Assembly (NCBI RefSeq): GCF_001654455.1
Contig: NZ_CP015772.1
Location: 5,332,001 to 5,396,000, forward strand
DNA: 64,000 bases
Origin: Niabella ginsenosidivorans
GTDB lineage: Bacteria > Bacteroidota > Bacteroidia > Chitinophagales > Chitinophagaceae
Reading direction: 5' to 3'
A program made the translations under genes and the position numbers. Below, in pieces: positions 32,591 through 56,930 of this stretch. Below the pieces are notes generated by a model, which saw only the letters and a program-made list of their open reading frames with translations, ran no database searches and was not told where the DNA came from. Position 1 is the first letter of the stretch. Each line of letters opens with the position of its first letter.

Positions 32591-32610
32591 AATGAAACTA
32601 AAGCAGGAAT

Positions 32611-33351: not shown

Positions 33352-33390
33352 AGAACCCGGAAGTTAAACAATACTTCAAATTCCAGAATT

Positions 33391-35109: not shown

Positions 35110-36978
35110 ATGAGCAGGCTTAGTTTAAATTTTTGGAGACCAGCTGTAAGATATCTATTAAGTCTCCGTTTAACAGCATTATTATGCCTTTTGATGCTTA
35201 CTATTGTTGCTACGGCTCAATACCCCTCTCCGGCCGAAGAGGCGCAAGGGGTGAGGCACACCTATTGCAATCCCATCAATATAGATTATGGCTACACACC
35301 CATTCCCAATTTCAGCAAATGGGGAAGGCACCGCGCAACGGCAGATCCGGTGATCGTAAATTATAAGGGAGATTATTATTTGTTCAGCACCAACCAGTGG
35401 GGATATTGGTGGAGCAGTGACCTGCTGAACTGGAAGTTTATTTCAAAAAAATTCCTGCGGCCCTGGAACACCAATACCTATGATGAGCTCTGCGCCCCGG
35501 CAGTAGGGGTTGTGGGTGATACGATGCTGGTATTTGGTTCTACCTATACCCGGAATTTTACGCTCTGGATGAGCACCAATCCCAAAGCCAATGAGTGGAA
35601 ACCATTAGTGGATTCCTTTGAAATTGGCGGCTGGGACCCGGCATTTTTTACGGATGAAGATGCCCGCCCGGATGCTTCGGCTGGACGGGGACGGGTTTAT
35701 ATGTACAACGGCAGCAGTAATGTGTATCCCATTTATGGAATTGAGCTGAACCGGAAAACCTTTCAGCCCATTGGCACACGCAAGGAACTCTATTTTCTGC
35801 AAAGCTGGCGCTACGGCTGGCAGCGGTTTGGAGAATATTCAGATAATACCTTTTTAGACCCTTTTATTGAAGGTGCGTGGATGACCCGGCATAATGGAAA
35901 GTATTATTTACAATATGGCGCGCCAGGCACTGAGTTCAGCGGTTATGCCGATGGTGTGGTGGTGGGTGATACACCGTTGGGGCCCTTTACGCCACAATCG
36001 GATCCTTATAGCATGAAGGTGGGCGGCTTTATAAGAGGCGCGGGGCATGGCGCTACCTTCCAGGACAATTTTAAAAATTACTGGCATGTTTCTACGGGCA
36101 TCATTTCCGTAAAAAATACTTTTGAGCGCCGTATCGGTATCTGGCCGGCAGGGTTTGATAAAGACGGGCTGATGTACTGCAATACATCGTTCGGAGATTA
36201 CCCTACTTACCTGCCTTCCTCGCTGGATGGTGAAACGGGAGATACCATGCGCTCCCTTTTTACCGGATGGATGCTGCTGAACTATAACAAACCGGTACAG
36301 GTTTCTTCTACCCTGGGCGATTATACGCCCAACAATGCGGTGGATGAGCTGATAAAGACCTACTGGAGCGCAAAAACCGGCAAGAAAGGAGAGTGGATCC
36401 AGTCGGATCTGGGTACTGTGTCAACAATAAACGCGGTACAGATCAATTATGCAGACCAGGATGTGGCTCCCTATCACTTAGGAAAGATCAACAACCAGTA
36501 TCATCAGTATATGCTGTACTATTCAAAGGATGGCAGAAAGTGGACCGTGCTGGTTAATAAAAGCGCCAACAAAACAGATGTGCCCCATGATTATGTAGAA
36601 CTTGAAAAACCGGTACAGGCGCGTTTTATAAAGCTGGAGAACATCCATATGCCCACCGGTAAGTTTGCCATCAGCGGCCTGCGCGTTTTTGGCAATGGGA
36701 ACGGGGAAAAGCCCGGAGCCATAAAGGATTTTATCGTATTGCGTACAGAAAAGGATAAGCGCAGCGCCTATATAAAATGGCGGCCGGTTGATGATGCTTA
36801 TGCGTACAATATTTATTATGGTATTGCCCCGGATAAGCTGTACAACTGCATTATGGTGCATTCCAGTAATGAATACTGGATGAAAGCAATGGATGCGCAA
36901 AAAACCTATTATTATTGCATAGAAGCAATAAATGAGAACGGGGTAAGTGAAAGGAGTAAAGTCATTAAAGTAGAGTAA
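35110..36978 (+). CDS. GH43-like glycosidase with discoidin and fibronectin III domains
   Basis: A 622-residue secreted protein with a signal peptide (about residues 18-37, ending ATAQ). A five-bladed GH43-type propeller covers about 48-370, with the acidic triad Asp79 in ATADPVIV, Asp176 in GGWDPAFF and Glu254 in PFIEGAW. An F5/8-type C (CBM32-like) domain covers about 390-535, and a fibronectin III domain fills the end (SAYIKWRPVDDAYAYNIYYG). GH43 enzymes usually release arabinose, xylose or galactose, so this may trim side chains, or be a glucan-adapted member. It directly follows the GMC gene with no gap. Confidence 0.84.
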   Translation: MSRLSLNFWRPAVRYLLSLRLTALLCLLMLTIVATAQYPSPAEEAQGVRHTYCNPINIDYGYTPIPNFSKWGRHRATADPVIVNYKGDYYLFSTNQWGYWWSSDLLNWKFISKKFLRPWNTNTYDELCAPAVGVVGDTMLVFGSTYTRNFTLWMSTNPKANEWKPLVDSFEIGGWDPAFFTDEDARPDASAGRGRVYMYNGSSNVYPIYGIELNRKTFQPIGTRKELYFLQSWRYGWQRFGEYSDNTFLDPFIEGAWMTRHNGKYYLQYGAPGTEFSGYADGVVVGDTPLGPFTPQSDPYSMKVGGFIRGAGHGATFQDNFKNYWHVSTGIISVKNTFERRIGIWPAGFDKDGLMYCNTSFGDYPTYLPSSLDGETGDTMRSLFTGWMLLNYNKPVQVSSTLGDYTPNNAVDELIKTYWSAKTGKKGEWIQSDLGTVSTINAVQINYADQDVAPYHLGKINNQYHQYMLYYSKDGRKWTVLVNKSANKTDVPHDYVELEKPVQARFIKLENIHMPTGKFAISGLRVFGNGNGEKPGAIKDFIVLRTEKDKRSAYIKWRPVDDAYAYNIYYGIAPDKLYNCIMVHSSNEYWMKAMDAQKTYYYCIEAINENGVSERSKVIKVE

Positions 36979-36990
36979 ATTCGCTATAAC

Positions 36991-37070
36991 AGCACACAGA
37001 TTGCATGGGTTGTCACAGCATATTTTAGATCTGTGCAGGTCTGCGAAACCTGTGAGCAAAAATCATGGAG
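36991..37070. repeat. Degenerate CACAG/CTGCG intergenic repeat
   Basis: Short words such as CACAGATTG, TCACAGCA, GATCTGTGCAG, GTCTGCGAAACCTGTGAG form an imperfect dyad-rich element in the gap between two PUL genes. Similar sequence occurs at 52255-52420. It is non-coding. Confidence 0.35.
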
Positions 37071-37104
37071 ACTTAGTCAATTAATTTGAAAATTAAAATC
37101 GGAT

Positions 37105-37761
37105 ATGAAGAAAATCTACCTGTTTGTTTTATTGTTTTTTATTCCTGTAACCATACTATTGGCACAGGAAGCGCCTTTTTATAAAGATATCCAGCATTTT
37201 AAAGAACTGGACCGGCAAAATCCTCCTCCTAAAAATGCAATACTGTTCATAGGCAGCTCCTCCTTTACCAAGTGGACGGATGTAAGCGATTATTTTCCCG
37301 GTTATACCATTATTAACCGTGGTTTCGGAGGGTCTACATTAAAAGACCTGCTGTATTATTTTAATGACCTGGTGCCTGTTTATAAGCCCCGGCAAATTGT
37401 AATTTACTGCGGCGAAAATGACCTGGCCAATGATCAGACACCGGCGGATACTGTTGTCAGCCGTTTTAAACAATTATATGATCTTATCCGTAATTACAGC
37501 AAAAATGTGCCGGTGGCATATATTTCCATGAAGCCAAGCCCCAGCCGCGCACGGTTTTTACCAAAGTTTATAGCTGCCAATGCTGCTATAAAAGCATGTA
37601 TTCAGAAAGAAAAAAAGATCCGCTATATTGACGTATATGATCATATGCTGGGCCCCGATGGCGCTCCCGTACCGGGTATTTTTGTTAACGACAGCCTGCA
37701 TATGAACGCGGGGGGATACCATATCTGGCAGCAGGTTATTCAGCCCTATCTGAAAAAGTAG
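37105..37761 (+). CDS. SGNH/GDSL-family esterase, secreted
   Basis: A 218-residue SGNH hydrolase with a signal peptide (residues 1-20). The four family blocks are complete: Ser in ILFIGSSSFTKW, Gly in NRGFGGST, Asn in YCGENDLAND, and the Asp-His pair in NDSLHMNAGGYH. Such enzymes remove acyl groups, for example acetyl, from glycans. Between GH43-like and GH3 genes, it probably strips ester substituents from the PUL substrate in the periplasm. Confidence 0.88.
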   Translation: MKKIYLFVLLFFIPVTILLAQEAPFYKDIQHFKELDRQNPPPKNAILFIGSSSFTKWTDVSDYFPGYTIINRGFGGSTLKDLLYYFNDLVPVYKPRQIVIYCGENDLANDQTPADTVVSRFKQLYDLIRNYSKNVPVAYISMKPSPSRARFLPKFIAANAAIKACIQKEKKIRYIDVYDHMLGPDGAPVPGIFVNDSLHMNAGGYHIWQQVIQPYLKK

Positions 37762-37820
37762 GCAAATGTGCAAAACGGTATTCTAATGAACGATCCCCTG
37801 TAAAATAAAAAATCAAAATC

Positions 37821-40121
37821 ATGCGATACAAAAGATTGCTGCTTGTTCCTTTGGTGATAGCCATAGCGGTTGTAAGTGTTTATGCACAGCCCGGCGATGC
37901 AAAGATGAAGGGTTTCGTTAGCTCTTTAATGAGCAGGATGACCCTGGAGGAAAAAATAGGGCAATTAAATTTGCCAAGTGCAGGCGAGTTTACAACAGGA
38001 ACCGCTACCAATTCAGATATCGGTAAAAATGTGAAAGAAGGAAAAGTGGGCGGCCTTTTTAATATAAAAGGGGTCGCAAAAATAAAAGCCATCCAGAAAG
38101 TGGCGGTAGAAGAAAGCCGTATGAAAATTCCGCTGCTGTTTGGTATGGATGTAATCCATGGTTATGAAACTACTTTCCCGATCCCTTTAGGTCTTTCCTG
38201 TACCTGGAATATGCAATCTATAGAACAATCGGCACGCATTGCCGCTACGGAAGCCAGTGCCGATGGTATTTGCTGGACCTTCAGCCCGATGGTGGATCTT
38301 ACCCGTGATCCGCGCTGGGGAAGGGTTTCAGAAGGCAACGGGGAAGATCCCTACCTGGGAGCACAGATCGCCAAAGCTATGGTAACGGGTTACCAGGGAA
38401 ATTATGCGTCTAATACCAATATCATGGCCTGTGTAAAGCATTTTGCGTTATACGGAGCTGCGGAAGCCGGCAGGGATTATAACACGGTAGACATGAGCCA
38501 CCTGCGGATGTATAACGATTATTTTCCTCCTTACAAGGCAGCGGTGGATGCCGGCGCAGGAAGTGTTATGGCTTCCTTCAATGTGGTGGATGGCATACCC
38601 GCAACCGGCAACCGCTGGTTGCTGACAGATGTGCTGCGGAAGCAATGGGGCTTTAAAGGTTTTGTAGTAAGCGATTATACGGGTATCAATGAAATGATCG
38701 ATCATGGAATGGGCGATCTGCAGGCGGTTTCTGCACTGGCATTAAAGGCAGGTGTGGATATGGATATGGTGGGGGAAGGATTCCTGAAAACATTGAAAAA
38801 ATCCCTTGACGAAAAAAAGATCACACTGGCTGAAATAGAAGCTGCCTGCAGAAGCGTGCTGGAGGCAAAATATAAATTAGGTTTATTTGCGGATCCTTAT
38901 AAATATTGTAATGAAGAGCGCGCCAAAACAGAAATTTTTACCCCGGAGCACCGGAAAATAGCCCGGCAGGTTGCAGCAGAAAGTTTCGTGCTGTTAAAAA
39001 ATACTCCTGCCCCTGAAGGGGATGGGATATTACCTTTAAAGAAAGCAGGCAGGATAGCGCTCATTGGTCCCCTGGCCGATGCAGCCAACAATATGGCCGG
39101 AACCTGGAGCGTGGCAACGGTACAGGACCGGTCGGTTTCCGTTTTGGCCGGGTTAAAAGAAGTGCTGGGGAGTAAGGGCGAGATCTTATATGCAAAAGGA
39201 TGCAATCTGGATGCTGATCCGGCAATGGAAGAAAGGGCTACACTGTTTGGCAAGACGCTGAACCGCGACAGCCGCTCACCGGAAGCAATGAAGGCCGAAG
39301 CGCTGCAAATTGCAGGCAATGCCGATGTGATCATAGCAGCCATGGGAGAATCTGCAGAGATGAGCGGGGAAAGCAGCAGCCGGTCCGATCTGAATATCCC
39401 GGAAATTCAGCAGGATCTTTTGGCCGCGCTGGTAAAAACAGGAAAACCGGTAGTGTTGGTTTTATTTACAGGGCGCCCGCTGACACTGGGCTGGGAAGAT
39501 AAAAATGTGCCGGCTATTTTGAATGTATGGTTCGGCGGCTCTGAAGCGGGAACAGCCATTGCGGATGTTTTGTTTGGGGATGTAACCCCTTCAGGAAAAC
39601 TGACCATGACCTTCCCGCAGAATGTTGGGCAGGTTCCGTTGTACTACGCGCATCTGAATACAGGGCGTCCGCTGGGAGAGGGCAAATGGTTCCAGAAATT
39701 CCGCTCCAATTACCTGGATGTATCCAATGACCCGCTATATCCTTTTGGGTACGGATTAAGCTATACCTCCTTCAATTATAGCGATCTTCAGTTAAGCAGC
39801 ACTTCACTCAAAGGCAACCAAACTCTGCAGGCAAGCGTTACACTGACCAATAAAGGTAAATACGATGGTGCAGAAGTGGTGCAATTGTATATTCGCGATA
39901 AAGTGGGAAGTATTTCAAGACCCGTAAAGGAATTAAAAGGATTTCAGAAGGTGCTGCTCAAAGCAGGAGAAGCAAAAACAATTACGTTCAGGATTACACC
40001 AGAGGACCTGAAATTTTACAACAGCCGGCTGAAATATGATTGGGAAACCGGGGATTTTGAAATAATGATCGGCGGCAACTCAAGGGATGTAAAAACGGCA
40101 ACGGTGCATTGGGAACGGTAA
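37821..40121 (+). CDS. GH3 beta-glucosidase (BglX type)
   Basis: A 766-residue periplasmic beta-glucosidase with a signal peptide (residues 1-22). It has the GH3 N-terminal barrel (GMDVIHGYETTFPIPLGLS, nucleophile Asp285 in VVSDYTGINEM), the GH3 C-terminal domain with the likely acid/base glutamate in GESAEMSGESSSRSDL, and the fibronectin-like C-terminal domain (YPFGYGLSYTSFNY onward). It would turn short beta-gluco-oligosaccharides into glucose. GH3 next to GH144 enzymes is the known arrangement for beta-1,2-glucan use in Bacteroides, as I recall. It is the last PUL 1 gene. Confidence 0.95.
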   Translation: MRYKRLLLVPLVIAIAVVSVYAQPGDAKMKGFVSSLMSRMTLEEKIGQLNLPSAGEFTTGTATNSDIGKNVKEGKVGGLFNIKGVAKIKAIQKVAVEESRMKIPLLFGMDVIHGYETTFPIPLGLSCTWNMQSIEQSARIAATEASADGICWTFSPMVDLTRDPRWGRVSEGNGEDPYLGAQIAKAMVTGYQGNYASNTNIMACVKHFALYGAAEAGRDYNTVDMSHLRMYNDYFPPYKAAVDAGAGSVMASFNVVDGIPATGNRWLLTDVLRKQWGFKGFVVSDYTGINEMIDHGMGDLQAVSALALKAGVDMDMVGEGFLKTLKKSLDEKKITLAEIEAACRSVLEAKYKLGLFADPYKYCNEERAKTEIFTPEHRKIARQVAAESFVLLKNTPAPEGDGILPLKKAGRIALIGPLADAANNMAGTWSVATVQDRSVSVLAGLKEVLGSKGEILYAKGCNLDADPAMEERATLFGKTLNRDSRSPEAMKAEALQIAGNADVIIAAMGESAEMSGESSSRSDLNIPEIQQDLLAALVKTGKPVVLVLFTGRPLTLGWEDKNVPAILNVWFGGSEAGTAIADVLFGDVTPSGKLTMTFPQNVGQVPLYYAHLNTGRPLGEGKWFQKFRSNYLDVSNDPLYPFGYGLSYTSFNYSDLQLSSTSLKGNQTLQASVTLTNKGKYDGAEVVQLYIRDKVGSISRPVKELKGFQKVLLKAGEAKTITFRITPEDLKFYNSRLKYDWETGDFEIMIGGNSRDVKTATVHWER

Positions 40122-41185: not shown

Positions 41186-41542
41186 AAAACTATTTTAATT
41201 GTAAAGAATAAATGGTGTCCGGAAACCAGCCTGCCCTTTTGCAGGATACTTCAGGTACCAAAAATAACGGGGAACTTGTCAAAACAGTCTGTTGTATGCG
41301 TTACAAATAGTAACAGGAATGGAGTACAAAAGGTATACAATGCCCATTCGGTCTACTTTTATAGGAGCATGCTAACCGGGCCGGTAAAAATGTCAGGCCC
41401 GGGCTGTCAATATAGTAATCGAAATAAAGCTTGTATTGCTGTGTATTTATCCAGCTTGCGGACCCGGGAAAATTGCACCTGTTCCGGCTAAAGGATATTA
41501 CCTGTATCGGAGCACTCGCTTTCTACTTCCCCTTTTACTATA

Positions 41543-41550
41543 TATATTTG
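41543..41550 (+). promoter_or_regulatory. -7 promoter element TATATTTG of PUL 2
   Basis: Same octamer as in front of the PUL 1 sigma gene, here only 11 bases before the ATG at 41562, so the leader is very short. Confidence 0.55.
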
Positions 41551-41561
41551 TGTGCGATTGT

Positions 41562-42161
41562 ATGTTTGAGCAAAAACAACTGGACGGATCGGCCATTGAA
41601 AAATGGAAACTGCTGATTGCAAAGGATGACCAGCGGGCCTTCAGGGACCTGTTCAATCTGTTTGCGGAACGCCTCACTGCATTTTCCTATTCTATTACAA
41701 GAAACAGGGATGCTGCATCAGAAGTGCTGGATACGGTATTTATCAAACTTTGGAAAAACAGAAGATCGCTTGCGGATGTTCAAAACCTTACGATTTATCT
41801 TTATGCCGCGGTAAAGAACGCCTCATTGAATTATCTGGCACGTAAGGCAAATGAAAACCAGACCCAACCTTTCGATTTTATCAATATACAGCTAACCCAT
41901 GACGAGCTGCCCGATCAAAAGCTTATTTCTGCGGAAATATTTGAGAAAATAAAAAAAGCGGTGGACGAATTACCCACCCGGTGTAAAATGATCTTTAAGC
42001 TGGTAAGAGAAGATGGATTGAAATATAAGGAGGTAGCCCGGGTGCTGAATATTTCTGAAAATACCGTAGATGCACAAATGGTTATTGCTGTTAAAAGGAT
42101 CGGAGCAAGCGTAAGGCATTATTTCGATTATTTTCCGGGGCGGTTTCAAAAAAAACAATAA
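41562..42161 (+). CDS. ECF RNA polymerase sigma factor of PUL 2
   Basis: A 199-residue ECF sigma factor. Region 2 (FRDLFNLFAERLTAFSYSI, DTVFIKLWKNR) and region 4 (LPTRCKMIFKLVREDGLKYK, ISENTVDAQM) are complete. Region 4 is almost the same as in the PUL 1 sigma factor. The frame extends to 41436, but that part contains the promoter, so ATG 41562 is chosen. FecR, SusC and SusD genes follow in order. Confidence 0.93.
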   Translation: MFEQKQLDGSAIEKWKLLIAKDDQRAFRDLFNLFAERLTAFSYSITRNRDAASEVLDTVFIKLWKNRRSLADVQNLTIYLYAAVKNASLNYLARKANENQTQPFDFINIQLTHDELPDQKLISAEIFEKIKKAVDELPTRCKMIFKLVREDGLKYKEVARVLNISENTVDAQMVIAVKRIGASVRHYFDYFPGRFQKKQ

Positions 42162-42216
42162 TTCTTTTAGGGTGTAATTTCATTCTGACTGTCTTTATGG
42201 TTAGCAAAGCCATAGA

Positions 42217-43323
42217 GTGAGGGACCGGTTGGCCATATTATTATCAAGAAAATTATCTGGGGAAGCCAGTAATGAAGAACTAAAGGAGCTCGAGGACTGG
42301 ATCAGGGAGCACCCGGAAGATCATTACTGGATCGATACAATGGAGCTGTTCTGGTACAATCCTACCAGTTCCGATTTTTCAGATCTGAACCTGGAAGCGC
42401 ATATCCGGTATATTTTCAACCAGGCAGAAAAAGAAAGCGCTGAATTGCCGGAACAGGAAGGGGTGGTCTCAAAAAAGAAAAGATCCTATTCGGCAACGTG
42501 GATAAAATGGTCTGCTGTGGCAGCAACCCTTATCATCCTTGCAACAGGCGGGCTCTACCTGGCAGGAAAGCAAGGCTTCCTGTTTAACCGTACTAAAAAT
42601 ACAGAAAGTGAAATAGCAACTACTGGCGGTACCCGGTCACAAATAGTATTACCGGATGGCTCAAAAGTATGGTTAAATGCTTCCAGTAAGCTGCTGTATA
42701 ATAAAAAATTCAATGACACTTTAAGAGAAGTTTTTCTGGATGGCGAGGCCTTTTTTGATGTCCGTAAAGACCCGGCAAGACCGTTCATTGTACATACGGC
42801 AGATATAGACATCAGGGTGCTGGGCACGGCATTTAATGTAAAATCGTATAAAGAGGATGCCACAGTGGAAACGACCCTGATCCATGGGTTGGTAAGGGTC
42901 ATTAACAAAACAGAGCAGAATGCTTCAGAGGTCATCCTGCATCCCAAAGAAAAGCTGGTATTCCGCAAACCCGGCACAAAAGATCCTGTACCGGAAAGCA
43001 GTGCATCCACTGCACCGGTCACCCGTCCTTTACCGGATTATACGGTTTCCAGGATCTTACCGGTAAATTCGGATTCTGTTTTTGCAGAAACTGCCTGGGT
43101 CAACAACCAGCTTTTGTTTGACGGGGACCGGTTTAAAGATCTTGCCGTGAAAATGGAGCGCTGGTTTGATGTAACCATCTCTTTTGAAGACAGCAGCGTT
43201 GCCAGCTATCGCCTGAGCGGGGCCTTTGAAGATGAAACCATTAACCAGGCGCTTGGCGCGTTACAGCAGATCGCATCCTTTCATTATAAAATAAAAGACA
43301 AACATGTAATAATAAGTAAATAA
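42217..43323 (+). CDS. FecR-family anti-sigma factor of PUL 2
   Basis: A 368-residue anti-sigma factor with the cytoplasmic part (LLSRKLSGEASNEELKEL) at residues 8-60, a membrane helix at about 93-110, the FecR domain at about 130-235 (VLPDGSKVWLNASSKLLY, VLGTAFNVKSY) and DUF4974 at the end. GTG 42217 is the likely start. Same architecture as the PUL 1 copy, but the sequences have diverged more than the sigma factors. Confidence 0.92.
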   Translation: MRDRLAILLSRKLSGEASNEELKELEDWIREHPEDHYWIDTMELFWYNPTSSDFSDLNLEAHIRYIFNQAEKESAELPEQEGVVSKKKRSYSATWIKWSAVAATLIILATGGLYLAGKQGFLFNRTKNTESEIATTGGTRSQIVLPDGSKVWLNASSKLLYNKKFNDTLREVFLDGEAFFDVRKDPARPFIVHTADIDIRVLGTAFNVKSYKEDATVETTLIHGLVRVINKTEQNASEVILHPKEKLVFRKPGTKDPVPESSASTAPVTRPLPDYTVSRILPVNSDSVFAETAWVNNQLLFDGDRFKDLAVKMERWFDVTISFEDSSVASYRLSGAFEDETINQALGALQQIASFHYKIKDKHVIISK

Positions 43324-43417
43324 AAGCCGGAAAATGCTGCAACATTAACCGGCTGTAAGATAAACGGAACGCCGTTAGAGAACGGGTTCCTATTTGTTTA
43401 ACTCTAAAAGTAAATGT

Positions 43418-46400
43418 ATGAAAAAAAACGTACCTGAGGAGCTTTTGCCTTCTTACAGGGTGCTTGTTAAAACATTGCTTATCATGAAGCTGGCAATTGC
43501 ACTTATTTTCTTTACCGCAATACAGGTAAAAGCCGGTACAGCAGCAGGCCAGAACATTTCTGTAAATGTAAAAAATGCCGAAGTGAAGAGCGTATTGAAA
43601 GCAATTGAAAAAAGCTCAAAATACCGGTTCCTGTATAACTATGAGTTAAAAGGGCTGAAGAACAGGGTTGATTTCAGGGCGGAGGAGGCCTCTTTGGAAA
43701 ACACGCTTAATAAATTGCTGGATGCCAACGGGCTTACCTATAAAATGGTCAGTAAAAATCTTATTGCGGTGGTTTCAAAAGACCCGGAGGAGAATGCTGA
43801 GATCAGGATAACCGGTAAGGTTACATCCCAGGCCGGCGATCCTGTTTCCGGGGCATCTGTACAGGAAAAAGGTACCAGCAACGGAACAATAACCAATAAT
43901 AACGGGGAATATACGCTTACGGTTGGCAATAATGCGGTGCTGCAGATCAGCGCCATTGGGTATCAGTCCCAGGAAGTTCCTGTTGCCGGCAAAAATATAG
44001 TAGATGTACAGCTTGTTGCAGCCGTAACACAGATGGACCAGGTGGTGGTCATTGGTTATGGTACACAAACAAAAAAAGACCTGACAGGCGCAGTATCCGT
44101 CATTTCTGAAAAAGATATTAAAGACAGGCCTTTGGTAAATGCCGCAGAGGCCTTACAGGGTAAGGCTTCGGGGGTCAGCGTTGTTTCCAACTCGGGTAAG
44201 CCCGGTGCCGGTTTATCAATCCGGGTGCGGGGCTCCTCATCCATAAGCGCCGGGAACGATCCGTTATATGTTGTAGACGGAGTTCCGATGACAGATATTT
44301 CTTCGTTTTCAGCAACCGATATAGCCTCTATTTCTATTTTAAAAGATGCAGCATCCACTGCTATTTATGGTACACGTGCCGCCAATGGCGTGGTAATTAT
44401 TACCACAAAAAAAGGGTCAGGAAAGGGAAAATTAGATGCAAATGTATATTACGGAATCAGCCGGCCAACAAAAATGCTCTCTGTTTTAAATGCCCGGCAA
44501 TACCAGGCATATGCCAATCAGCTGACACCGGGGCTTATTACAGACTCCGCTGTAAATGCTACTAATATTAACTGGCCCAAAGAGGTGATCGGGAACGGGC
44601 ATCAGGAAAATTACCAGCTAACCTATTCTAAAGGTGGCAAAGTGTTACAAAGCTTCGTCTCTTTAAATTATTTAAATCAAACGGGTATTATTGAGCCTGC
44701 CAAGTTCAACAGGTTCACTGCAAGAGGCAACTTTAATATCATTGCAACGAAATGGCTCACTATAAACTGGAATAATATTTATACCTATGATTATACAAAT
44801 GATGTAACCGATAATCAAAGCGTGGCAAGAGGCGGTGTTGTATTGTCAGCACTTGAAACCCCGCCTATTATTCCCAAGTTTAATCCGGATGGAACGATCG
44901 GCTTTAACCCATATGGCAATAACTGGGAAAATCCCTTAGGCGCTATTTTAGGGCAATACAATAGAACCTATGCAAACAGGCTGGTATCAAATCTCGGTAT
45001 TAATATCAAAATTGGCAAAAACCTCACTTTTGATTCAAAGTTTGCCATTGATTACCTCGATCAGAAGTATAACCATTTTCTTGATCCCTTCCTTACTACA
45101 TATGGCCGGCAAACAAGAGGCCAGACGAATCAGACCAAAACAAAAAATCCCGTTTGGTTAAATGAAGAAACGCTGAACTTTACAAAAACCTGGAACAGCA
45201 AGCATCATTTCAGCGCACTGGGCGGGTGGACAGTACAGAAATCGTACAAGCGGGACTCTGTTCGCAGCGGCTCGGTTCTGGATCCTTCGCTCAATTATAA
45301 TGATTATACCTGGGAAGCCATATACCAGATGGATTCTATTAAAAATCCTTCTGTCCGTAATATAGATGAGTGGGGGTTGATATCCATGCTGGGCAGGGTC
45401 ATGTACGATTATGAAGGGAAATACCTGTTTCAGGCAAATATCAGATCAGATCAATCCTCAAAATTTGCAAAAGGCTACAGAACGGCAACCTTTCCTTCAT
45501 TTTCAGCAGGATGGCGGATCTCAGAGGAGCCGTTTATGAAAGATTCAAAAATATTCAGCGATTTGAAGTTGCGGGTTAGCTGGGGTAAAAATGGTAACCA
45601 GGAAGGAATTGGGAGTTACAGCTATTTAAATACTTCCACTGTTGACCCGGTAACGGGAGGCCTGACCATCAATAATATTGCTCCTCAAAATCTGACATGG
45701 GAAACCACAACCCAATCCAATATAGGATTAGATGCAGGCTTCTTTAATAACCGGTTGAGTTTTACCGGAGATTTTTATGTTAAAAAGACCAAAAACATTC
45801 TGGTAAATATTCCGGTTTCTTCACAGGTAGTAGCTGTGGTACCTGTGAACGCCGGTGCCATGCAAAATACAGGAGCCGAGTTTTTATTATCCAGTAAAAA
45901 CATAGCTGGAAAAGATTTTACATGGAATACAGATTTTAATATATCTTTTAACAGGAACAAAGTAACCGAAATAGGCCTGGGAATAAATACGTTAAATGTA
46001 TTCGGCGGTATTTATGAAAGAGACAATGCCATTACATTAAGGACAGGGTATGGTTTGGGTGAGTTTTATATGTACAGGGCTGCGGGAGTAGATCCTCAAA
46101 CCGGTTTACAGCTCTACTATACCAAAGATGGGCAAACAACATCAAACCCCGCTCCAAGCGACAGGGCATTGGTAGGAAGCGCCCAGCCTGATTTTCTGTA
46201 TGGTTTGAATAATACGTTTTCTTATAAAAACTTTGACCTGGTCATCTTCCTGCAAGGTTCCCAGGGAAATAAAATATTTAATGCCGGCCGGTTAGAGTTA
46301 GAGTCTATGCGTAATGCGATCAATCAGAGCTCGGCAATTTTAAACCGGTGGATGAACCCGGGAGACGTAACAGACATTCCGGCCGTAAGCATCAATCAAA

Positions 46401-46711
46401 GTACCGCTAATACGCTTACCTCTACCCGGTTTTTAGAGAACGGGTCTTATTTACGCTTTAAGACCATTACACTTTCGTACAGGGTAGGGCCTAAAGTGCT
46501 TTCATCATTAGGGTTGAGGGCTGCCAGCATATATGTCTCCTGCAATAATTTAATAACATTTACAAAATATAAAGGGTTCGATCCTGAAGTGAGTTCTTAT
46601 GGTAGCCCCACCAATACTACAGACAACAGGAATATCTCTATTGGTATCGATAACGGAGCGTACCCGCAAACAAAAATGGTACTGCTTGGAGTTAATATAG
46701 GCATACTATAA
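43418..46711 (+). CDS. SusC/RagA TonB-linked outer membrane transporter with STN domain (PUL 2)
   Basis: A 1097-residue SusC-like transporter. It has a signal segment (about residues 22-40), an STN domain (45-100, NAEVKSVLKAIEKSSKYRF), a carboxypeptidase-regulatory-like domain (115-200), a plug starting at VVVIGYGTQTKKDLTGAVSV, and a barrel. ATG 43418 (MKKNVPEELLPS) is the likely start. The base composition is close to that of its neighbours throughout, unlike the PUL 1 copy. It pairs with the SusD gene 39 bases downstream. Confidence 0.95.
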   Translation: MKKNVPEELLPSYRVLVKTLLIMKLAIALIFFTAIQVKAGTAAGQNISVNVKNAEVKSVLKAIEKSSKYRFLYNYELKGLKNRVDFRAEEASLENTLNKLLDANGLTYKMVSKNLIAVVSKDPEENAEIRITGKVTSQAGDPVSGASVQEKGTSNGTITNNNGEYTLTVGNNAVLQISAIGYQSQEVPVAGKNIVDVQLVAAVTQMDQVVVIGYGTQTKKDLTGAVSVISEKDIKDRPLVNAAEALQGKASGVSVVSNSGKPGAGLSIRVRGSSSISAGNDPLYVVDGVPMTDISSFSATDIASISILKDAASTAIYGTRAANGVVIITTKKGSGKGKLDANVYYGISRPTKMLSVLNARQYQAYANQLTPGLITDSAVNATNINWPKEVIGNGHQENYQLTYSKGGKVLQSFVSLNYLNQTGIIEPAKFNRFTARGNFNIIATKWLTINWNNIYTYDYTNDVTDNQSVARGGVVLSALETPPIIPKFNPDGTIGFNPYGNNWENPLGAILGQYNRTYANRLVSNLGINIKIGKNLTFDSKFAIDYLDQKYNHFLDPFLTTYGRQTRGQTNQTKTKNPVWLNEETLNFTKTWNSKHHFSALGGWTVQKSYKRDSVRSGSVLDPSLNYNDYTWEAIYQMDSIKNPSVRNIDEWGLISMLGRVMYDYEGKYLFQANIRSDQSSKFAKGYRTATFPSFSAGWRISEEPFMKDSKIFSDLKLRVSWGKNGNQEGIGSYSYLNTSTVDPVTGGLTINNIAPQNLTWETTTQSNIGLDAGFFNNRLSFTGDFYVKKTKNILVNIPVSSQVVAVVPVNAGAMQNTGAEFLLSSKNIAGKDFTWNTDFNISFNRNKVTEIGLGINTLNVFGGIYERDNAITLRTGYGLGEFYMYRAAGVDPQTGLQLYYTKDGQTTSNPAPSDRALVGSAQPDFLYGLNNTFSYKNFDLVIFLQGSQGNKIFNAGRLELESMRNAINQSSAILNRWMNPGDVTDIPAVSINQSTANTLTSTRFLENGSYLRFKTITLSYRVGPKVLSSLGLRAASIYVSCNNLITFTKYKGFDPEVSSYGSPTNTTDNRNISIGIDNGAYPQTKMVLLGVNIGIL

Positions 46712-46750
46712 ATGATTATTAAAGAAGCCGATTCTTTTAAAATAATTTTT

Positions 46751-48217
46751 ATGAAACAAACTATTCAATTTAGATATATATCCATTGTTCTGGGAGCCTT
46801 TATCATAATGGCCGGGTGCAATAAGATTCTGGATCTTGAACCGAAACCTCCGTTGGTAAAAACGCCGGTAGAAAATGTTAATGTAACTGCCACTGATGCC
46901 GAAAATTTATTACAGGGCATATATGATGCAGAAACAGGGTATGACAATGGATTGGAGTTTAACGTGCTGGACCGGATCACCAACGGAGATGTATGGGCAG
47001 ATAATTGTTACGCCGGTGGAGATAATGCAGCTAATATTACGATTGATTTGTTCACCGCAAATGCGTTGAATGATAATATCAGGAGAGACTGGGTGGATGC
47101 CTATGCGATCATCGGTAAGGCAAATAATGCACTGGCACAGATAAGCAACAGTACCGATGCGTCTCTTGTCAGCCCTCGAAAAGAACAGATATTAGGTGAA
47201 ATAAGGTTTATGCGGGCATTCACTTATTTTGATATGTTGCGTTTATATGGAAATATTCCGCTTTTACTGCAGCCAGCAGATAACAGCAGCTCTGAGGCAT
47301 TGATTCAATCCACGATAGTGCCGCCAGCTGCACCCGATACGGTATACAATGCTATTCTTAATGATTTATGGTATGCAAGGGCAAATGTTAGAAATGACAA
47401 TACGCAAAAAACAAAAATGATCGTGACCAAAGGAGCAGCCAATGCCATGCTTGCAAAAGTGCATGCTACTATGCCTGAACCCAACTGGGATTCGGTGGCT
47501 TATTATTGCGATCAGGTAATTCCTAATTACAGCCTGTTGCCCGATTATACTTTTTTATGGGATAATGCACACAAAAATAATAGTGAAGCCATCTGGGAAT
47601 TTTATTATCAGGGGTACTCTGTTGTTGGCAATTGGATACCCAGCCAGTTTATCGGGGAAGGGTGGAAGAAATTTTCAACACCTACCAATGACCTGGTAAA
47701 TACCTTTAGAGCAGAAGGCGATTCCATCCGCTTGCATGCATCTGTAACATTTGTGACTTACGGATGGAGCGACAACTACTGGAAAAATCCATTCAACTAT
47801 CCTGTTTTGTCGAAGTATAATGATCCAACTAACGGCACCAATGACTTTTACCCGATCAGGCTGGCCGATATCTTATTGCTAAGGGCGGAAGCCTATAATG
47901 CCAAAAATAATACAGGCCAGGCCGCCGCGTTATTAAACCGGGTCAGGAACAGGGTGCACCTTCCAAACACCACAGCCAATACACAGCAGGATATGGCAAA
48001 TGCAATAGCAAAAGAAAGGCGGCTTGAACTGGCGTTTGAGGGACATAGAAGATTTGATTTATTAAGAACAGGGACGGCAATTACGGTTATGAATGCGCAA
48101 CAGGATGGCAGCGGTAAAAGCCTTAACTATAATGTGCAGTCTACCCAGCTTATATACCCTATACCCCAGCAGCAACTGGATCTCAACCCTAAACTGGTAC
48201 AAAACCCCGGGTATTAA
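46751..48217 (+). CDS. SusD/RagB glycan-binding lipoprotein (PUL 2)
   Basis: A 488-residue SusD-type lipoprotein with lipobox IIMAGC. It shows the helical SusD fold (EILGEIRFMRAFTYFDMLRLYG-like segment near residue 150, ILLLRAEAYNAKNN, ERRLELAFEGHRRFDLLRTG) and ends NPGY. The start at 46751 was chosen because it gives a proper lipoprotein signal; the frame extends 13 codons upstream. It partners the preceding SusC. Confidence 0.95.
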   Translation: MKQTIQFRYISIVLGAFIIMAGCNKILDLEPKPPLVKTPVENVNVTATDAENLLQGIYDAETGYDNGLEFNVLDRITNGDVWADNCYAGGDNAANITIDLFTANALNDNIRRDWVDAYAIIGKANNALAQISNSTDASLVSPRKEQILGEIRFMRAFTYFDMLRLYGNIPLLLQPADNSSSEALIQSTIVPPAAPDTVYNAILNDLWYARANVRNDNTQKTKMIVTKGAANAMLAKVHATMPEPNWDSVAYYCDQVIPNYSLLPDYTFLWDNAHKNNSEAIWEFYYQGYSVVGNWIPSQFIGEGWKKFSTPTNDLVNTFRAEGDSIRLHASVTFVTYGWSDNYWKNPFNYPVLSKYNDPTNGTNDFYPIRLADILLLRAEAYNAKNNTGQAAALLNRVRNRVHLPNTTANTQQDMANAIAKERRLELAFEGHRRFDLLRTGTAITVMNAQQDGSGKSLNYNVQSTQLIYPIPQQQLDLNPKLVQNPGY

Positions 48218-49660
48218 ATGTATGTTATGATGAAAAAACGCTTATGGAGCTTACCGGCCATCGGATTGGCGCTTTTATTTATCCAATGTAATAAAAAAGC
48301 CAGCCCCGGCAAGACCAATGGGCCGGCAGAATATGATATACTCCATCCGGACGCATGGATCACCAAAGCAGACCAGTCTGCTTTGTTACAAAAAACAGAT
48401 CTGAGCACTGCGGAGGTAGCAGGCAATAGCCCGGTGATCACTATAGATACGTCCCGGCAATATCAAACGGTAGACGGGTTTGGTTATACGCTTACGGGCG
48501 GCAGCGCAGTGCTGATCAACCAATTGCCTGCGGAAAAAAAACAGGCATTGCTGGAAGAATTGTTTGGTAATAATGCCAATGCTATTGGCGTCAGTTATCT
48601 GCGGTTAAGCGTCGGCGCTTCTGACCTGGATTCTGTTACTTTTTCCTATAATGATCTTCCCGCGGGGGAAACAGATGTTGATCAGTCAAAATTCAGCCTG
48701 GCGCCGGATCAATCCAATCTGATCCCCGTTTTAAAGAGGATCCTGGCCATTAATCCCGCTATAAAGATCATTGCAGCGCCCTGGAGCGCCCCTGCCTGGA
48801 TGAAAGATAATAACAGTACCAAAGGCGGATCACTCAAGCCGGATTATTATGATGCGTATGCCACCTATTTTGTAAAATACATTCAGGCAATGCAGGCAGA
48901 AGGAATTACTATTAATGCCATTACCCCGCAGAATGAGCCGTACCATCCCGGTAATAATCCAAGCCTTTATATGACGGCTACGATGCAACGGGACTTTATA
49001 AAGAACCACCTCGGACCTGCCTTTGCAAAAAATAATATCCGGACAAAGATTGTGGTATATGATCATAACCTGGATAAACCTCTGTATGCGGATACGATAT
49101 ACCAGGACCCGGGTGCATCAAAATATGTAGACGGCGCGGCCTTTCATTTATATGCCGGGGAGGTAAGCGCCATGGGGCAGCTGCATGACCGGCATCCGGA
49201 TAAGCAGCTGTATTTTACGGAACAATGGACCGGCAGCCGGGAACCATTTAACACCACTTTGCTGTGGCATATAAAAAATGTGATCATCGGCACCCTGCAT
49301 AACTGGAGCAAAATAGCATTGGAATGGAACCTGGCAAATGACCCTTCCTTCCGGCCTCATACGCCCGGGGGCTGTACAGAATGCAAAGGCGCTGTTACCA
49401 TAAACGGGAACTCCTTTACACGCAATGTTTCCTATTATATCATAGCCCATGCGTCAAAATTTATTCCGCCGGGGGCCAGAAGAATTGAAAGCGCACAGGT
49501 GAACGGCCTCTCCAATGTGGCGTTTATAACCCCGGCCGGTAAAAAAGTATTGCTGGTGCTGAACGAAAATGTAACCCCTGTTTCCTTTAAGTTGCAGGAT
49601 GGAAAGGCCGGTGCTCCTATCAGCCTTCCGGCGGGTTCCGTAGCCACGCTTGTCTGGTAG
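48218..49660 (+). CDS. GH30 family glucanase (beta-1,6-glucanase-like lipoprotein)
   Basis: A 480-residue GH30 enzyme with a lipoprotein signal (LLFIQC). The acid/base Glu243 is in TPQNEPYHPG and the nucleophile Glu335 in LYFTEQWTG, with the C-terminal beta domain intact. The sequence style (PWSAPAWMKDNN, ALEWNLANDPSFRPHTPGGC) is that of subfamily 3, whose known members are endo-beta-1,6-glucanases. ATGs at 48218, 48227 and 48230 are all possible starts. It follows SusD with no gap, so it is probably the surface endo-enzyme of PUL 2. Confidence 0.9.
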   Translation: MYVMMKKRLWSLPAIGLALLFIQCNKKASPGKTNGPAEYDILHPDAWITKADQSALLQKTDLSTAEVAGNSPVITIDTSRQYQTVDGFGYTLTGGSAVLINQLPAEKKQALLEELFGNNANAIGVSYLRLSVGASDLDSVTFSYNDLPAGETDVDQSKFSLAPDQSNLIPVLKRILAINPAIKIIAAPWSAPAWMKDNNSTKGGSLKPDYYDAYATYFVKYIQAMQAEGITINAITPQNEPYHPGNNPSLYMTATMQRDFIKNHLGPAFAKNNIRTKIVVYDHNLDKPLYADTIYQDPGASKYVDGAAFHLYAGEVSAMGQLHDRHPDKQLYFTEQWTGSREPFNTTLLWHIKNVIIGTLHNWSKIALEWNLANDPSFRPHTPGGCTECKGAVTINGNSFTRNVSYYIIAHASKFIPPGARRIESAQVNGLSNVAFITPAGKKVLLVLNENVTPVSFKLQDGKAGAPISLPAGSVATLVW

Positions 49661-52556: not shown

Positions 52557-53831
52557 ATGAAAAAATGGGGCTTGCTAAGTGTTGGAATGGTGCTGCAGTT
52601 GACCATAGCTGCACAATCCAAAGTATTAATGCCAGGGCCTGCAGCATCCAACGGATTTTCTGACGAACGCCTGCAGCGCATTGATGCGGTCATTAAAGAA
52701 TATATCCGGCATGGCTGGATCAAAGGCGCCACCGCCTTTATTGCACATGATGGCGTTATTGTTTATAACAAAGCGTTTGGCACCGGCAATGCGCAAACCA
52801 ATGCTTCTTTAAAAACGGATGACATTTTCCGCATTGCTTCCCAAACAAAGGCCATTACCAGTGTGGCGGTGATGATGCTGTTTGAGGAAGGAAAATTCCT
52901 GCTGGATGATCCCATTTCAAAGTACATTCCGTCCTTCGCTCATCCCGGAGTGCTGGATCAGTTTAATGAAAAGGACAGCAGTTATACAACCGTTCCTGCA
53001 AAACGGGAAATAACGATCCGGGATCTGCTTACCCATACTTCCGGGCTGGATTATGCGCAGATCGGCTCGCCGAAAATGAAGGCGATTTATGCAAAGGCGG
53101 GTATACCTGCAGGTTTTTTGCCACATCCTCAGAAACTGGCAGATGCCATTGATAAGCTGGGCACCCTGCCATTAGTGCACCAGCCGGGTGATGGCTTTAC
53201 TTATAGTTTAAGCGTGGATGTTTTGGGCAGGCTGGTAGAAGTGGTCTCCGGCATGAGCCTGAATGATTTCTTCCGTAAACGGATCTTTGAGCCGCTGGGA
53301 ATGAAAGATACCTATTTTCATTTGCCTGATGCAAAACGCTCCCGGCTGGTAAGCGTTTATACAGAAGATAAAATAACAAAAGCACTCATTCCATGGGCAG
53401 ATACCACATTCCGTGGCATATCCGTTGATTACCCGGTAAACAATAACGGGTATTTTTCCGGAGGAGCAGGCTTGGTATCCACCACTGCAGACTATGCCGC
53501 CTTTCTGCAAATGATGGTGAACAAGGGAGAATATAACGGCAAACGCCTGCTGTCAAGACATACTGTGGAAATGATGACGCAAAACCAGATCGGGGAGTTG
53601 CCCTTTGGCGCCAATAAATTCGGATTGGGGTTTGAAATAACCACGGATAAAGGGTTCCTCAAGCTGGGCCAGTCTGCCGGAAGCTTTGCCTGGGGCGGTT
53701 TCTTTGGCACAACCTATTGGGGAGACCCCCGGGAACATATAGTGGCGCTGCTGTTTGTGCAGCAATGGCCGTTCAGCCATGGTGAACTGGGCGATAAATT
53801 TAAAGCCCTGGTCTACCAGGCATTACAGTAA
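52557..53831 (+). CDS. Serine hydrolase, class C beta-lactamase fold, secreted
   Basis: A 424-residue protein with a signal peptide (residues 1-19, ending IAAQ). It has the beta-lactamase/esterase fold with the SxxK motif SQTK in FRIASQTKAITS, a Tyr motif (YSLS) near residue 220, and a WGG motif (SFAWGGFFGTTYW) in place of the KTG triad. Members act as esterases, D-aminopeptidases or amidases rather than antibiotic-resistance enzymes. Placed inside PUL 2, it may remove ester groups from the glycan; that is inference. Confidence 0.88.
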   Translation: MKKWGLLSVGMVLQLTIAAQSKVLMPGPAASNGFSDERLQRIDAVIKEYIRHGWIKGATAFIAHDGVIVYNKAFGTGNAQTNASLKTDDIFRIASQTKAITSVAVMMLFEEGKFLLDDPISKYIPSFAHPGVLDQFNEKDSSYTTVPAKREITIRDLLTHTSGLDYAQIGSPKMKAIYAKAGIPAGFLPHPQKLADAIDKLGTLPLVHQPGDGFTYSLSVDVLGRLVEVVSGMSLNDFFRKRIFEPLGMKDTYFHLPDAKRSRLVSVYTEDKITKALIPWADTTFRGISVDYPVNNNGYFSGGAGLVSTTADYAAFLQMMVNKGEYNGKRLLSRHTVEMMTQNQIGELPFGANKFGLGFEITTDKGFLKLGQSAGSFAWGGFFGTTYWGDPREHIVALLFVQQWPFSHGELGDKFKALVYQALQ

Positions 53832-53900: not shown

Positions 53901-55382
53901 ATGAAAAAAGTTTTTAATCTTGCTTTTGCAATAGCCCTGTTGGGCTGTAATAATCCGCAAACGACGATGAACGCATTAACAAAAGAAGAAAGCAACGCTC
54001 CGTCTTTTTCTCTTGAGGGGAGAACTGCATCCATTTATACCTCCGCAGATACAGCCGGTTACCGGCTTTTGGAAACAGACAGTGGGAAAGGGTTTACTGA
54101 TATGGGGCAGCCCAAAGAAACCCAGGTCTGCGTTTTTGCAGATCCGTCAAAAGCATTTCAGACCATTGTGGGCATTGGCGGAGCCATTACAGATGCTGCA
54201 GCTGAAACATTGGCAAAACTGCCGGCTGCTACCCAGGACTCTTTATTAAATGCCTATTATGACCCGGCAGCAGGAATCGGGTATACATTAGCCAGAACCA
54301 ACATCAATAGCTGCGACTTTTCCAGCGATACTTATAATTACGTGGCCGATAATGATTCACTCTTAAATTCATTCAATATTGCGCACGATGAAAAATATAA
54401 GCTCCCGTTCATTAAACGGGCTATGGCAATTGCCAAAGGAAAGCTGAAGTTGTTTGTAAGCCCCTGGAGCCCTCCTGCATGGATGAAGGATAATAATGAT
54501 ATGCTGCACGGAGGCAGCCTGAAAAAAGATTTTTATCATTCCTGGGCGGAGTATTATATAAAATACATCAACGCACTTGAAAAACAGGCAATACCTGTTT
54601 GGGGGCTTTCTGTACAAAATGAGCCTATGGCAACCCAAAAATGGGAATCCTGTATTTATACAGCAGAACAGGAGGCGGATTTTATAAAAACAGCCCTTGG
54701 GCCGGCCCTGGAAAAAGCGGGCATACAGGATAAAAAACTGATCATATGGGACCATAACCGCGATCTGATCTATCAGCGTGCAAGCACCACATTAGCAGAT
54801 CCTGATGTTGCAAAGTATGTTTGGGGAATTGGTTATCATTGGTATGAAACCTGGACCGGCAGCGATATGATGTTTGAAAATCTTAGAAGGACCGCTGAAG
54901 CGTTCCCCGGTAAACAGTTGCTGTTTACGGAAGGCTGCAGGGAAAAGTTTTCAATGGACAGCATTCATAACTGGAATCTCGGAGAAAAGTATGGCATGTC
55001 TATGATCAACGACTTTAATGCCGGTGCCGCAGGCTGGACAGACTGGAATGTGTTGCTTGATGAAACCGGTGGCCCCAATCATGTTGGTAATTTCTGTTTT
55101 GCGCCGGTGCATGCCGATACCAGGACCGGCCGGCTCATTTATACCAGCGCCTATTACTACCTGGGGCATTTTTCAAAATTTGTCCGCCCGGGCGCAAGGC
55201 GCATTGCAGTAGCTACCAATCGTACCGATCTGCTGGGAACAGGGTTTCTCAATACTGATGGCAGAATAGCCGTTATAGTAATGAATAAAGGCGGTCATGA
55301 CCTGCAATACAATCTTTGGATAAAAGGCAAAGCAGTTGCAATAAATGCCTTAAAACATTCAATACAAACAATTCTGATATAG
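53901..55382 (+). CDS. GH30 family glucosidase/glucanase lipoprotein
   Basis: A 493-residue GH30 enzyme with lipobox ALLGC. Acid/base Glu241 is in SVQNEPMATQ and nucleophile Glu344 in LLFTEGCRE, with the barrel start GIGGAITDAAAETL and a complete beta domain. The pattern resembles subfamily 1 (glucosylceramidase-type), which in Bacteroidota includes beta-1,6-glucosidases that trim branches of laminarin-type glucans. It differs clearly from the other GH30 here, so the two are not a recent duplicate. It lies 21 bases before the fusion gene. Confidence 0.9.
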   Translation: MKKVFNLAFAIALLGCNNPQTTMNALTKEESNAPSFSLEGRTASIYTSADTAGYRLLETDSGKGFTDMGQPKETQVCVFADPSKAFQTIVGIGGAITDAAAETLAKLPAATQDSLLNAYYDPAAGIGYTLARTNINSCDFSSDTYNYVADNDSLLNSFNIAHDEKYKLPFIKRAMAIAKGKLKLFVSPWSPPAWMKDNNDMLHGGSLKKDFYHSWAEYYIKYINALEKQAIPVWGLSVQNEPMATQKWESCIYTAEQEADFIKTALGPALEKAGIQDKKLIIWDHNRDLIYQRASTTLADPDVAKYVWGIGYHWYETWTGSDMMFENLRRTAEAFPGKQLLFTEGCREKFSMDSIHNWNLGEKYGMSMINDFNAGAAGWTDWNVLLDETGGPNHVGNFCFAPVHADTRTGRLIYTSAYYYLGHFSKFVRPGARRIAVATNRTDLLGTGFLNTDGRIAVIVMNKGGHDLQYNLWIKGKAVAINALKHSIQTILI

Positions 55383-55403: not shown

Positions 55404-56930
55404 ATGTTGAAATTAATTACAGGCACAGGAATTTTATGTTTATTGGCCGCACTGGCATTTGCGAACCCGGTTACTGATAAAGACAAACCTTCCGGCAATG
55501 GTATAGTGGCCCATCGCGGGGCATTTAAAAAGAACGGACTGCCGGAAAATTCGATAGCCTCTTTAAAACAGGCCATTGCATTACAATGCGCCGGTTCAGA
55601 GTTTGATGTGCAAATGACATCCGACGATTCACTGGTTATCAATCATGATCCGCATTATAATAAACAGACCATTGAAAAAACCACGTATGCAGTGTTAGAA
55701 CAGACCCCTTTGTCAAATGGAGAAAGACTGCCAACATTGCGCGAATATCTTTTGGCCGGTTTACAGGATAACCGGTCTACAAAGCTGGTGCTGGAAATAA
55801 AACCATCTGTGGTCAGTAAGGAGCGGGGGCAGCAGGTTGCAGAGCGCGTGGTAAAGATGGTACACCAGCTGTACGCTGCGCCTAAAACCATTTACATCAG
55901 TTTTGATTATGAGATCTGTAAAAAAGTAAAACAACTGGATCCCCAAGCGCACGTACAATATCTGAATGGAGATAAATCCCCAGCAGCGCTGAAACAGGAT
56001 AACATTGACGGGGCCGATTACCATTTCTCTGTATTTCAAAAGAATCCGGAATGGATTGCACAGGCAAAGAAGAACCATATTGCCTTAAATGCCTGGACGG
56101 TGAATGATGCCGCGGAAATGGACTGGCTCCTGGCCAATGGCTTTGATTTTATTACTACTAATGAACCGGAGCTGTTAGCAGAGCGTATGAAGACCGCGCC
56201 TGTTTCAAAAGGATGGAAGCTGGTATGGAGCGATGAGTTTAATAAAGATGGATTGCCGGATGCTGCCAGATGGGGCTATGATGTAGGAGGAAATGGCTGG
56301 GGTAATAACGAGCTGGAATACTATACAAAGGCAGACTCTAATAATGCGGTCATAAAAAACGGGAAGCTGTTGATTATTGCAAAAAAGGAGAAGAGGGGGA
56401 AAAATACGTATACATCAGCGAGGCTGGTTACCAAAGGCAAGGGCGATTGGCTGTATGGCCGGGTGGAAGTCAGCGCTAAACTGCCTGCCGGTAAAGGTAC
56501 CTGGCCTGCAATATGGATGCTGCCAACAAACTGGAAATACGGAGGCTGGCCAGCAAGCGGTGAAATTGATATAATGGAAAATGTAGGATTTAATTCTGAT
56601 ACTGTTTATAGCAGTGTGCATACAAAAACATTTAACCACGTTATTGGTACGCAAAAAACAAAAGGCTTTTATCTGAACGATGCAGATAAAACATTCCATG
56701 TGTACGCTATGGAATGGAATAAGGACCGGATTGATTTTTTTGTAGATGATCAACGCTTTTTTTCGTTCAGCAATACCCGTAAAGGCTTTGCCGAATGGCC
56801 GTTTGATCAGCAATTTCACCTGATCTTAAATGTTGCAATGGGCGGTAACTGGGGAGGCGCACATGGTATGGATGAAAACCTCAGCAAGGCTGTTATGGAG
56901 GTAGACTATGTACGGGTATTTCAGAGATAA
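55404..56930 (+). CDS. Fusion: glycerophosphodiester phosphodiesterase plus GH16 laminarinase-type glucanase
   Basis: A 508-residue secreted two-enzyme protein. A signal peptide covers residues 1-20. Residues 32-270 are a GDPD domain with every key motif: His37-Arg38-Gly39, LPENS, Glu66 and Asp68 in EFDVQ, His81 in NHDPH, LEIK, NAWTVN and TTNEP. Residues 275-507 are GH16 of the laminarinase type with Glu387, Asp389 and Glu392 in GEIDIMEN. Both active sites look intact, so the protein should cut a phosphodiester and a beta-1,3-glucan bond. It is the last gene of PUL 2. The link suggests a glucan carrying glycerophosphoryl or phosphocholine groups; this is inference. Confidence 0.93.
   Translation: MLKLITGTGILCLLAALAFANPVTDKDKPSGNGIVAHRGAFKKNGLPENSIASLKQAIALQCAGSEFDVQMTSDDSLVINHDPHYNKQTIEKTTYAVLEQTPLSNGERLPTLREYLLAGLQDNRSTKLVLEIKPSVVSKERGQQVAERVVKMVHQLYAAPKTIYISFDYEICKKVKQLDPQAHVQYLNGDKSPAALKQDNIDGADYHFSVFQKNPEWIAQAKKNHIALNAWTVNDAAEMDWLLANGFDFITTNEPELLAERMKTAPVSKGWKLVWSDEFNKDGLPDAARWGYDVGGNGWGNNELEYYTKADSNNAVIKNGKLLIIAKKEKRGKNTYTSARLVTKGKGDWLYGRVEVSAKLPAGKGTWPAIWMLPTNWKYGGWPASGEIDIMENVGFNSDTVYSSVHTKTFNHVIGTQKTKGFYLNDADKTFHVYAMEWNKDRIDFFVDDQRFFSFSNTRKGFAEWPFDQQFHLILNVAMGGNWGGAHGMDENLSKAVMEVDYVRVFQR

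Follow-up and report, generated by a model that had tools for sequence, protein, structure and literature searches.

An open reading frame with an ATG start in the window (the whole 64,000-nucleotide stretch of Niabella ginsenosidivorans DNA that we analysed) encodes a 508-residue protein in which a GDPD domain is followed by a GH16 laminarinase domain (Table 1). The 5.63 Mb genome contains a single copy of this fusion. The preliminary description of this DNA had placed the two enzymes together in one secreted protein, and the domain searches agree with it for a product that we predict to be secreted: the PF03009 (GDPD) match covers residues 37-256 with 92.2 bits against a gathering score of 23.6, and the PF00722 (Glyco_hydro_16) match covers residues 307-488 with 85.2 bits against a cut-off of 22, so that both Pfam domains lie above their curated cut-offs within one reading frame.

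Table 1. Features of the window, with positions counted from its first nucleotide.
Feature	Position	Strand	Basis and remarks
Beta-1,2-glucan-type locus	20514..40121	+	SusC, SusD, LamG protein, three GH144, Gfo/Idh, sugar isomerase-like protein, GMC oxidoreductase, GH43, GDSL, GH3
Sigma-70-type sigma factor (ECF by context) and FecR anti-sigma factor	41436..43323	+	
SusC-SusD pair	43394..48217	+	Same locus as fusion
GH30, closest to BT3312-type endo-beta-1,6-glucanase	48218..49660	+	PDB 5ngk 5.4e-88
Beta-lactamase-fold serine hydrolase	52557..53831	+	PF00144 7.4e-69; ends 69 bp upstream of GH30
GH30, possibly beta-1,6-glucanase-like	53901..55382	+	PF02055 1.4e-76; ends 21 bp before fusion
GDPD-GH16 fusion	55404..56930	+	508 aa; N-terminus hydrophobic by eye, predicted secreted
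GDPD domain, residues 31-262	55494..56189	+	PF03009 7.3e-26; PDB 3no3 1.3e-49, 2pz0 1.2e-18
GH16 laminarinase domain, residues 267-508	56202..56927	+	PF00722 4.8e-24; PDB 3iln laminarinase 7.6e-87

The same two-domain order is found along the whole chain of two solved structures, PDB 7wwc and 7ww4, which phmmer aligned to residues 32-508 (E = 1.8e-186). Because this alignment runs across both domains, the fusion is not a product of a frameshift or of the assembly. Chance was ruled out as well, and the case in which the fusion would exist as an assembly artefact in one genome only, which the preliminary description had raised against itself, is excluded because the fusion recurs in genomes other than this one and in a protein of solved structure. 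The GDPD-GH16 architecture is already known, being represented in the PDB and frequent in certain genera. The 7WW4 entry is titled as a multidomain beta-1,3(4)-glucanase and the 7WWC entry as a complex with laminaritriose, and neither title gives a function for the GDPD. According to passages of PMC12448869, 7WWC is a Pedobacter terrae glucanase (A0A1G7XNR7) with no accompanying publication; one sentence there gives the 7WWC code to another enzyme, apparently a slip. That paper, which models 7WWC, was the only one on GDPD-GH16 fusions, and none was found on the role of the GDPD half, in a literature search that covered titles and the starts of abstracts and had bioRxiv and most subscription journals outside its range. 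A model of the window protein built from 28 related sequences (pLDDT 88.7, pTM 0.62) matched 7WW4/7WWC over 479 columns at 58% identity with a TM-score of 0.73; an alignment-free fold (pLDDT 38.6) was useless.

The preliminary description also held that the active-site motifs of both enzymes are complete, and comparison among fusions upholds this. The GDPD residues H37, R38, E66, D68, H81, E131 and K133 and the GH16 residues E387, D389 and E392 are unchanged in all 52 fusion rows, 48 of them distinct (one further fusion, L008, gave no open reading frame and was dropped); the GH16 residues lie in the ExDxxE motif, EIDIME at 387-392. Variation was seen at E48 of the PEN motif, which is Q in 30 rows, E in 19 and K in 3. 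The motif reads PQN in 7WW4/7WWC, unlike in the window protein. The active-site residues of Bacillus subtilis GlpQ include His-43, Arg-44, Glu-70, Asp-72, His-85 and Glu-152 (PMC7086022), and in our reading, which follows motif order, the window GDPD residues correspond to them. Both halves of the fusion look active on these grounds. Excerpts of the same paper describe a GlpQ mechanism in which the glycerol C2-OH participates, with sn-glycero-3-phosphoryl groups the only ones accepted, and list glycerophosphocholine, -ethanolamine and -glycerol as canonical substrates (PMC7086022). The fold and catalytic motifs of the window GDPD are common to the GDPD family at large (for example Parabacteroides 3no3, T. 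tengcongensis 2pz0 and GlpQ), but unlike those members it is fused to a glucanase and sits in a glucan locus. Similarly, the laminarinase of Rhodothermus marinus (3iln) has 54% identity to the window protein over the GH16 domain and has the EIDIME motif in common with it, but has no N-terminal GDPD like that of the window protein.

The region from 41436 to 56930 contains a SusC/SusD pair, glycoside hydrolases and a regulator, the combination that identifies a polysaccharide utilisation locus, and we read it as a locus of the beta-1,3/1,6-glucan type. Both of its GH30 genes match NF053856 (endo-1,6-beta-glucanase) below the cut-off of 700 bits: the gene next to the SusC-SusD pair with 397.4 bits (E = 7.6e-119), and the gene next to the fusion with 234.5 bits (E = 2e-69), the latter having 2wnw and glucosylceramidase 1ogs as its best PDB matches. 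BT3312-type beta-1,6-glucan loci have a fungal target; the GH30 neighbours of the fusion resemble BT3312, but fusion loci differ from that type in having the GDPD-GH16 protein and, elsewhere, an EEP gene. A homologue of the serine hydrolase adjoins the fusion in all seven other Niabella-type loci read for it (L032-L038). Downstream of the fusion lies a calcineurin-like phosphoesterase (57639-58817), probably a separate gene, with a homologue of 72-79% identity in 8/8 other Niabella-type loci read, contig-edge L050 among them. A scan for promoters and terminators gave as many matches as in shuffled sequence.

A second glucan locus, of the beta-1,2 type, precedes this one in the window, and between the two is a minus-strand ORF of 286 aa (40325-41185) with zero Pfam matches. 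One of the three GH144 proteins of the beta-1,2 locus matches the endo-beta-1,2-glucanase 5gzh (E = 2.3e-162), and no GDPD gene is present among the ORFs of this locus that we scanned. It resembles a locus in another genome (L047 of G095), minus the GDPD gene of the latter. GH144 loci for beta-1,2-glucan (PMC6499787) house some of the closest free (unfused) GDPDs, and one such locus adjoins the fusion locus here; unlike those free GDPDs, the fusion is not within 10 kb of GH144 loci. The distance between GH144 and the fusion is 14-28 kb in all eight Niabella-type fusion genomes, which may be inherited synteny.

To describe the distribution of the family, we searched several sets of genomes. In a set of 196, close GDPDs (E up to 1e-45) are present in 36 genomes, that of N. 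ginsenosidivorans included, at 37 places, and 11 of them are fused; full-length fusion matches were found in those same 11 genomes, with G016 having just a piece at a contig edge. An even sample of the class gave close GDPDs (E up to 1e-60) in 23 of 395 genomes, eight of them fused, with two genomes (G000 and G158) common to both samples. Two families were picked for holding fusions, so their rates are not general: the family of G273 has full-length fusions in 39 of 251 genomes (37 in genus g216, three genera in total), and the family of G502 has them in 5 of 249, from five genera. Close fusions are also present in Niabella drilacis and N. aurantiaca, and it is by kinship with such named records that loci are called Niabella-type here.

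Judged by sequence comparison, the GDPD-GH16 pairing is recurrent, in fused and unfused form. The two genes are separate and adjoining in Pricia (L056) and Larkinella (L071, L073), and the genes of G158 and Pricia cluster together in both domain trees. On the GDPD tree (59 rows) the fused label requires five changes, at least four of them on well-supported branches, and on the GH16 tree (46 rows) three, at least two of them forced; these counts do not distinguish fusion from fission, and the trees predate, and are without, most fusions of the 395-genome sample and of the G273 and G502 families. A single clade of the fused rows alone was rejected on both trees (12 GDPD rows, AU p = 1.1e-5; 13 GH16 rows, AU p = 7.3e-5). 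A clade of fused plus split rows was not rejected on the GH16 tree (p = 0.056).

Phosphoesterase genes lie beside many of the fusions. In two families an EEP gene directly follows the fusion on the same strand, nearly touching it, in 7/7 loci (G158; and G502, G522, G860, G943, G962 and G987), one of them on a contig of just 7.9 kb. EEP genes occur in 7 of 26 fusion loci, as against 1 of 34 free-GH16 and 1 of 66 free-GDPD loci. The best PDB matches of the one EEP neighbour tested are 3mpr and mannosyl-6-phosphatase 4c1r (E = 9e-51 for 4c1r). An example of the gene order is L220: SusC, SusD, GH16, GH2, fusion, EEP, two GH30, a sugar porter and GH3. Separately, at 8771-10376 in L181 (G234) a GDPD gene adjoins an EEP phosphatase gene, with zero GH16 matches in the locus, so the GDPD-EEP link is independent of the glucanase. 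Of the 30 loci retrieved, out of 39, from the G273 family, 27 have a phosphocholine-specific phospholipase C gene adjoining the fusion, although 29 of these 30 are from one genus with conserved flanks and amount to about one event; the three phospholipases tested are all TIGR03396 above cut-off, and the 1.5-kb flanks contain a SusD match in one of the 30 loci. On the 20-kb scale the phospholipase is present in 3/26 fusion loci, all three from genus g216, and in none of the 34 free-GH16 or 66 free-GDPD loci. Fusion loci of other families, among them L039, L040, L055, L170 and L226, have neither gene.

Regulators beside some fusions are of the glycan type. Among eight large neighbours scanned, four (L041, L222, L223 and L226) are Y_Y_Y/propeller/LuxR-type sensors, and none is a PhoB-like regulator; the Y_Y_Y match in L041 scored below cut-off, as did the LuxR matches in L041, L222 and L223. 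GlpT was absent from the ten neighbours scanned for it; an ATG22-like transporter of the MFS type occurs in two Larkinella loci. A candidate glycerol kinase near L222 precedes a xylose isomerase and is best read as a xylulokinase (below cut-off); it is probably unrelated.

Free GDPDs related to the window domain are linked to GH144 in a number of loci. The two occur together in L042, L044, L047, L051, L058, L166 and L167. Six of these seven loci have a SusC/D pair (the exception, L047, is truncated), and five have GH3 or GH43 (not L044 or L051). Two other loci have a SusC/D pair and a GDPD with a LamG protein (L126) or with a 293-aa ORF (L049). Within about 10 kb, GH144 is present in 8 of 66 loci with a free GDPD, in 1 of 34 with a free GH16 and in none of the 26 with a fusion, in a comparison of loci that are mostly 20 kb long, some shorter, several of them of common ancestry; GH3 counts from this comparison include GH30 and are set aside. 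Across 36 genomes, 4 of 37 close GDPDs have GH144 within 10 kb, compared to none of the 51 other GDPDs (Fisher p = 0.028, with loci treated as independent). At 5 kb the counts are 3 and 0 (p = 0.07), and at 30 kb they are 12 and 1 (p = 8e-5), with eight of the 12 being Niabella-type fusions that may count as one event. Since 35 of the 36 genomes that have a close GDPD also have GH144 at some position, co-occurrence in a genome is by itself not very informative. Most free GDPDs have no nearby match to the glucan genes of the window. The sulfatase superfamily also includes phosphoglycerol-handling enzymes, so some sulfatases of GH144 loci may act on phosphate groups. In marine GH144 loci, sulfatases have been taken as a sign of sulfation (PMC6499787). 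GH144 loci are common in Bacteroidetes and target beta-1,2-glucans (PMC6499787), and the osmoregulated glucans of Escherichia coli, which have a beta-1,2 main chain, can carry phosphoglycerol (PMC10514313).

The best reading of these observations, which we hold tentatively and at not quite an even chance, is that the fusion is a bifunctional enzyme for phosphodiester-substituted beta-glucans. As a secreted member of a beta-glucan utilisation locus, it would cut beta-1,3-linked glucan with its GH16 half, as suggested by the family and by the structure of the homologue 7WWC with laminaritriose, the sole ligand observed so far. Its GDPD half would strip a phosphodiester-linked substituent, most likely glycerophosphate, off the same glucan or its fragments. 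The stripped glucan would then be processed by exo-enzymes (GH30, GH3) and SusC/D, and in other families the adjoining EEP phosphatase may free the phosphate. We favour a glucan substituent because of the GH144-linked GDPDs and the loci that join SusC/D, fusion and EEP. Of the substituents named in the preliminary description, glucan-linked phosphocholine is disfavoured because the GlpQ mechanism uses the glycerol C2-OH. The phosphoglycerol of osmoregulated glucans is sn-1, which makes it an awkward substrate for an enzyme with the sn-glycero-3-phosphoryl specificity of GlpQ. Phytophthora makes a beta-1,3/1,6-glucan (mycolaminarin). Phosphoglucans of Phytophthora appear in PMC5618555 as just a reference-list title and a table row. 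The literature consulted does not establish any natural beta-1,3-glucan that carries glycerophosphate.

The main alternative is phosphorus scavenging from glucan-walled prey, in which the GH16 half would open the walls of fungi, oomycetes or algae and the GDPD tethered to it would cut glycerophosphodiesters derived from membrane phospholipids. The canonical substrates of GlpQ are glycerophosphodiesters (PMC7086022), SusCD-like loci of Flavobacterium scavenge phosphodiesters (PMC8115612), and lipid-derived substrates are favoured by the phospholipase C beside the fusions of the G273 family. However, this explanation leaves the GDPDs within beta-1,2-glucan loci unaccounted for, the regulators beside some fusions are of the glycan type, and the phospholipase is confined to genus g216 among the fusion loci compared; we consider scavenging unlikely, though by no means negligible. 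The earlier proposal of a phosphodiesterase that takes part in glucan breakdown stands in part: the comparative loci, with their GH144, SusC/D and phosphoesterase genes, speak for it, but lipid scavenging also fits.

In yeast walls, an ethanolamine-phosphate-mannose diester joins beta-1,6-glucan to GPI-anchored proteins. Cleavage of this bridge by the GDPD, with the EEP enzyme dephosphorylating mannose 6-phosphate, would suit the GH30 beta-1,6-glucanase-like neighbours (all below the NCBIfam cut-off) and the homology of the EEP neighbour to mannosyl-6-phosphatase 4c1r. We regard it as very improbable: the bridge is without a free vicinal hydroxyl of the kind used in the GlpQ mechanism, and no alpha-mannosidase family scored above cut-off in the subset of neighbours scanned, where the lone GH76 match (0.00062, below cut-off) lies in a thioredoxin-like protein. 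It is also improbable that the GDPD half is idle toward phosphodiesters and acts as a scaffold or a glucan-binding module. The description of the solved homologue as just a multidomain glucanase with laminaritriose and the variable E48 are consistent with an idle domain, but such a domain would be expected to lose some of the seven residues that are invariant in 48/48 distinct fusions.

If the preferred reading of a bifunctional enzyme for substituted beta-glucans is extended to the free GDPDs, there could be a Bacteroidota-wide family of loci for phosphodiester-decorated beta-glucans, in which this GDPD lineage acts on beta-1,2-glucans alongside GH144 and, where it is fused to GH16 with EEP as a partner, on a beta-1,3/1,6-glucan with an undescribed decoration. 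We put this forward as possible but doubtful. If it is true, the fusion predicts an undescribed natural glycan. If the GDPD acts on glucan, these loci would predict phosphate-decorated beta-glucans as food for bacteria and supply enzymes for stripping them. They would also reveal how the osmoregulated glucans of other bacteria are recycled, including the removal of their phosphoglycerol, a step for which our literature search (titles and starts of abstracts) found no described enzyme.

Two minor observations concern relatives of the protein. A Paludibacter MAG (L078) has a more distant GDPD together with GH144 on a 15.7-kb contig. In the two named Niabella fusions (L052 and L053) the N-terminus carries a lipobox-like LSGC or LGGC, which the window protein lacks, so the enzyme may be located differently in different species.
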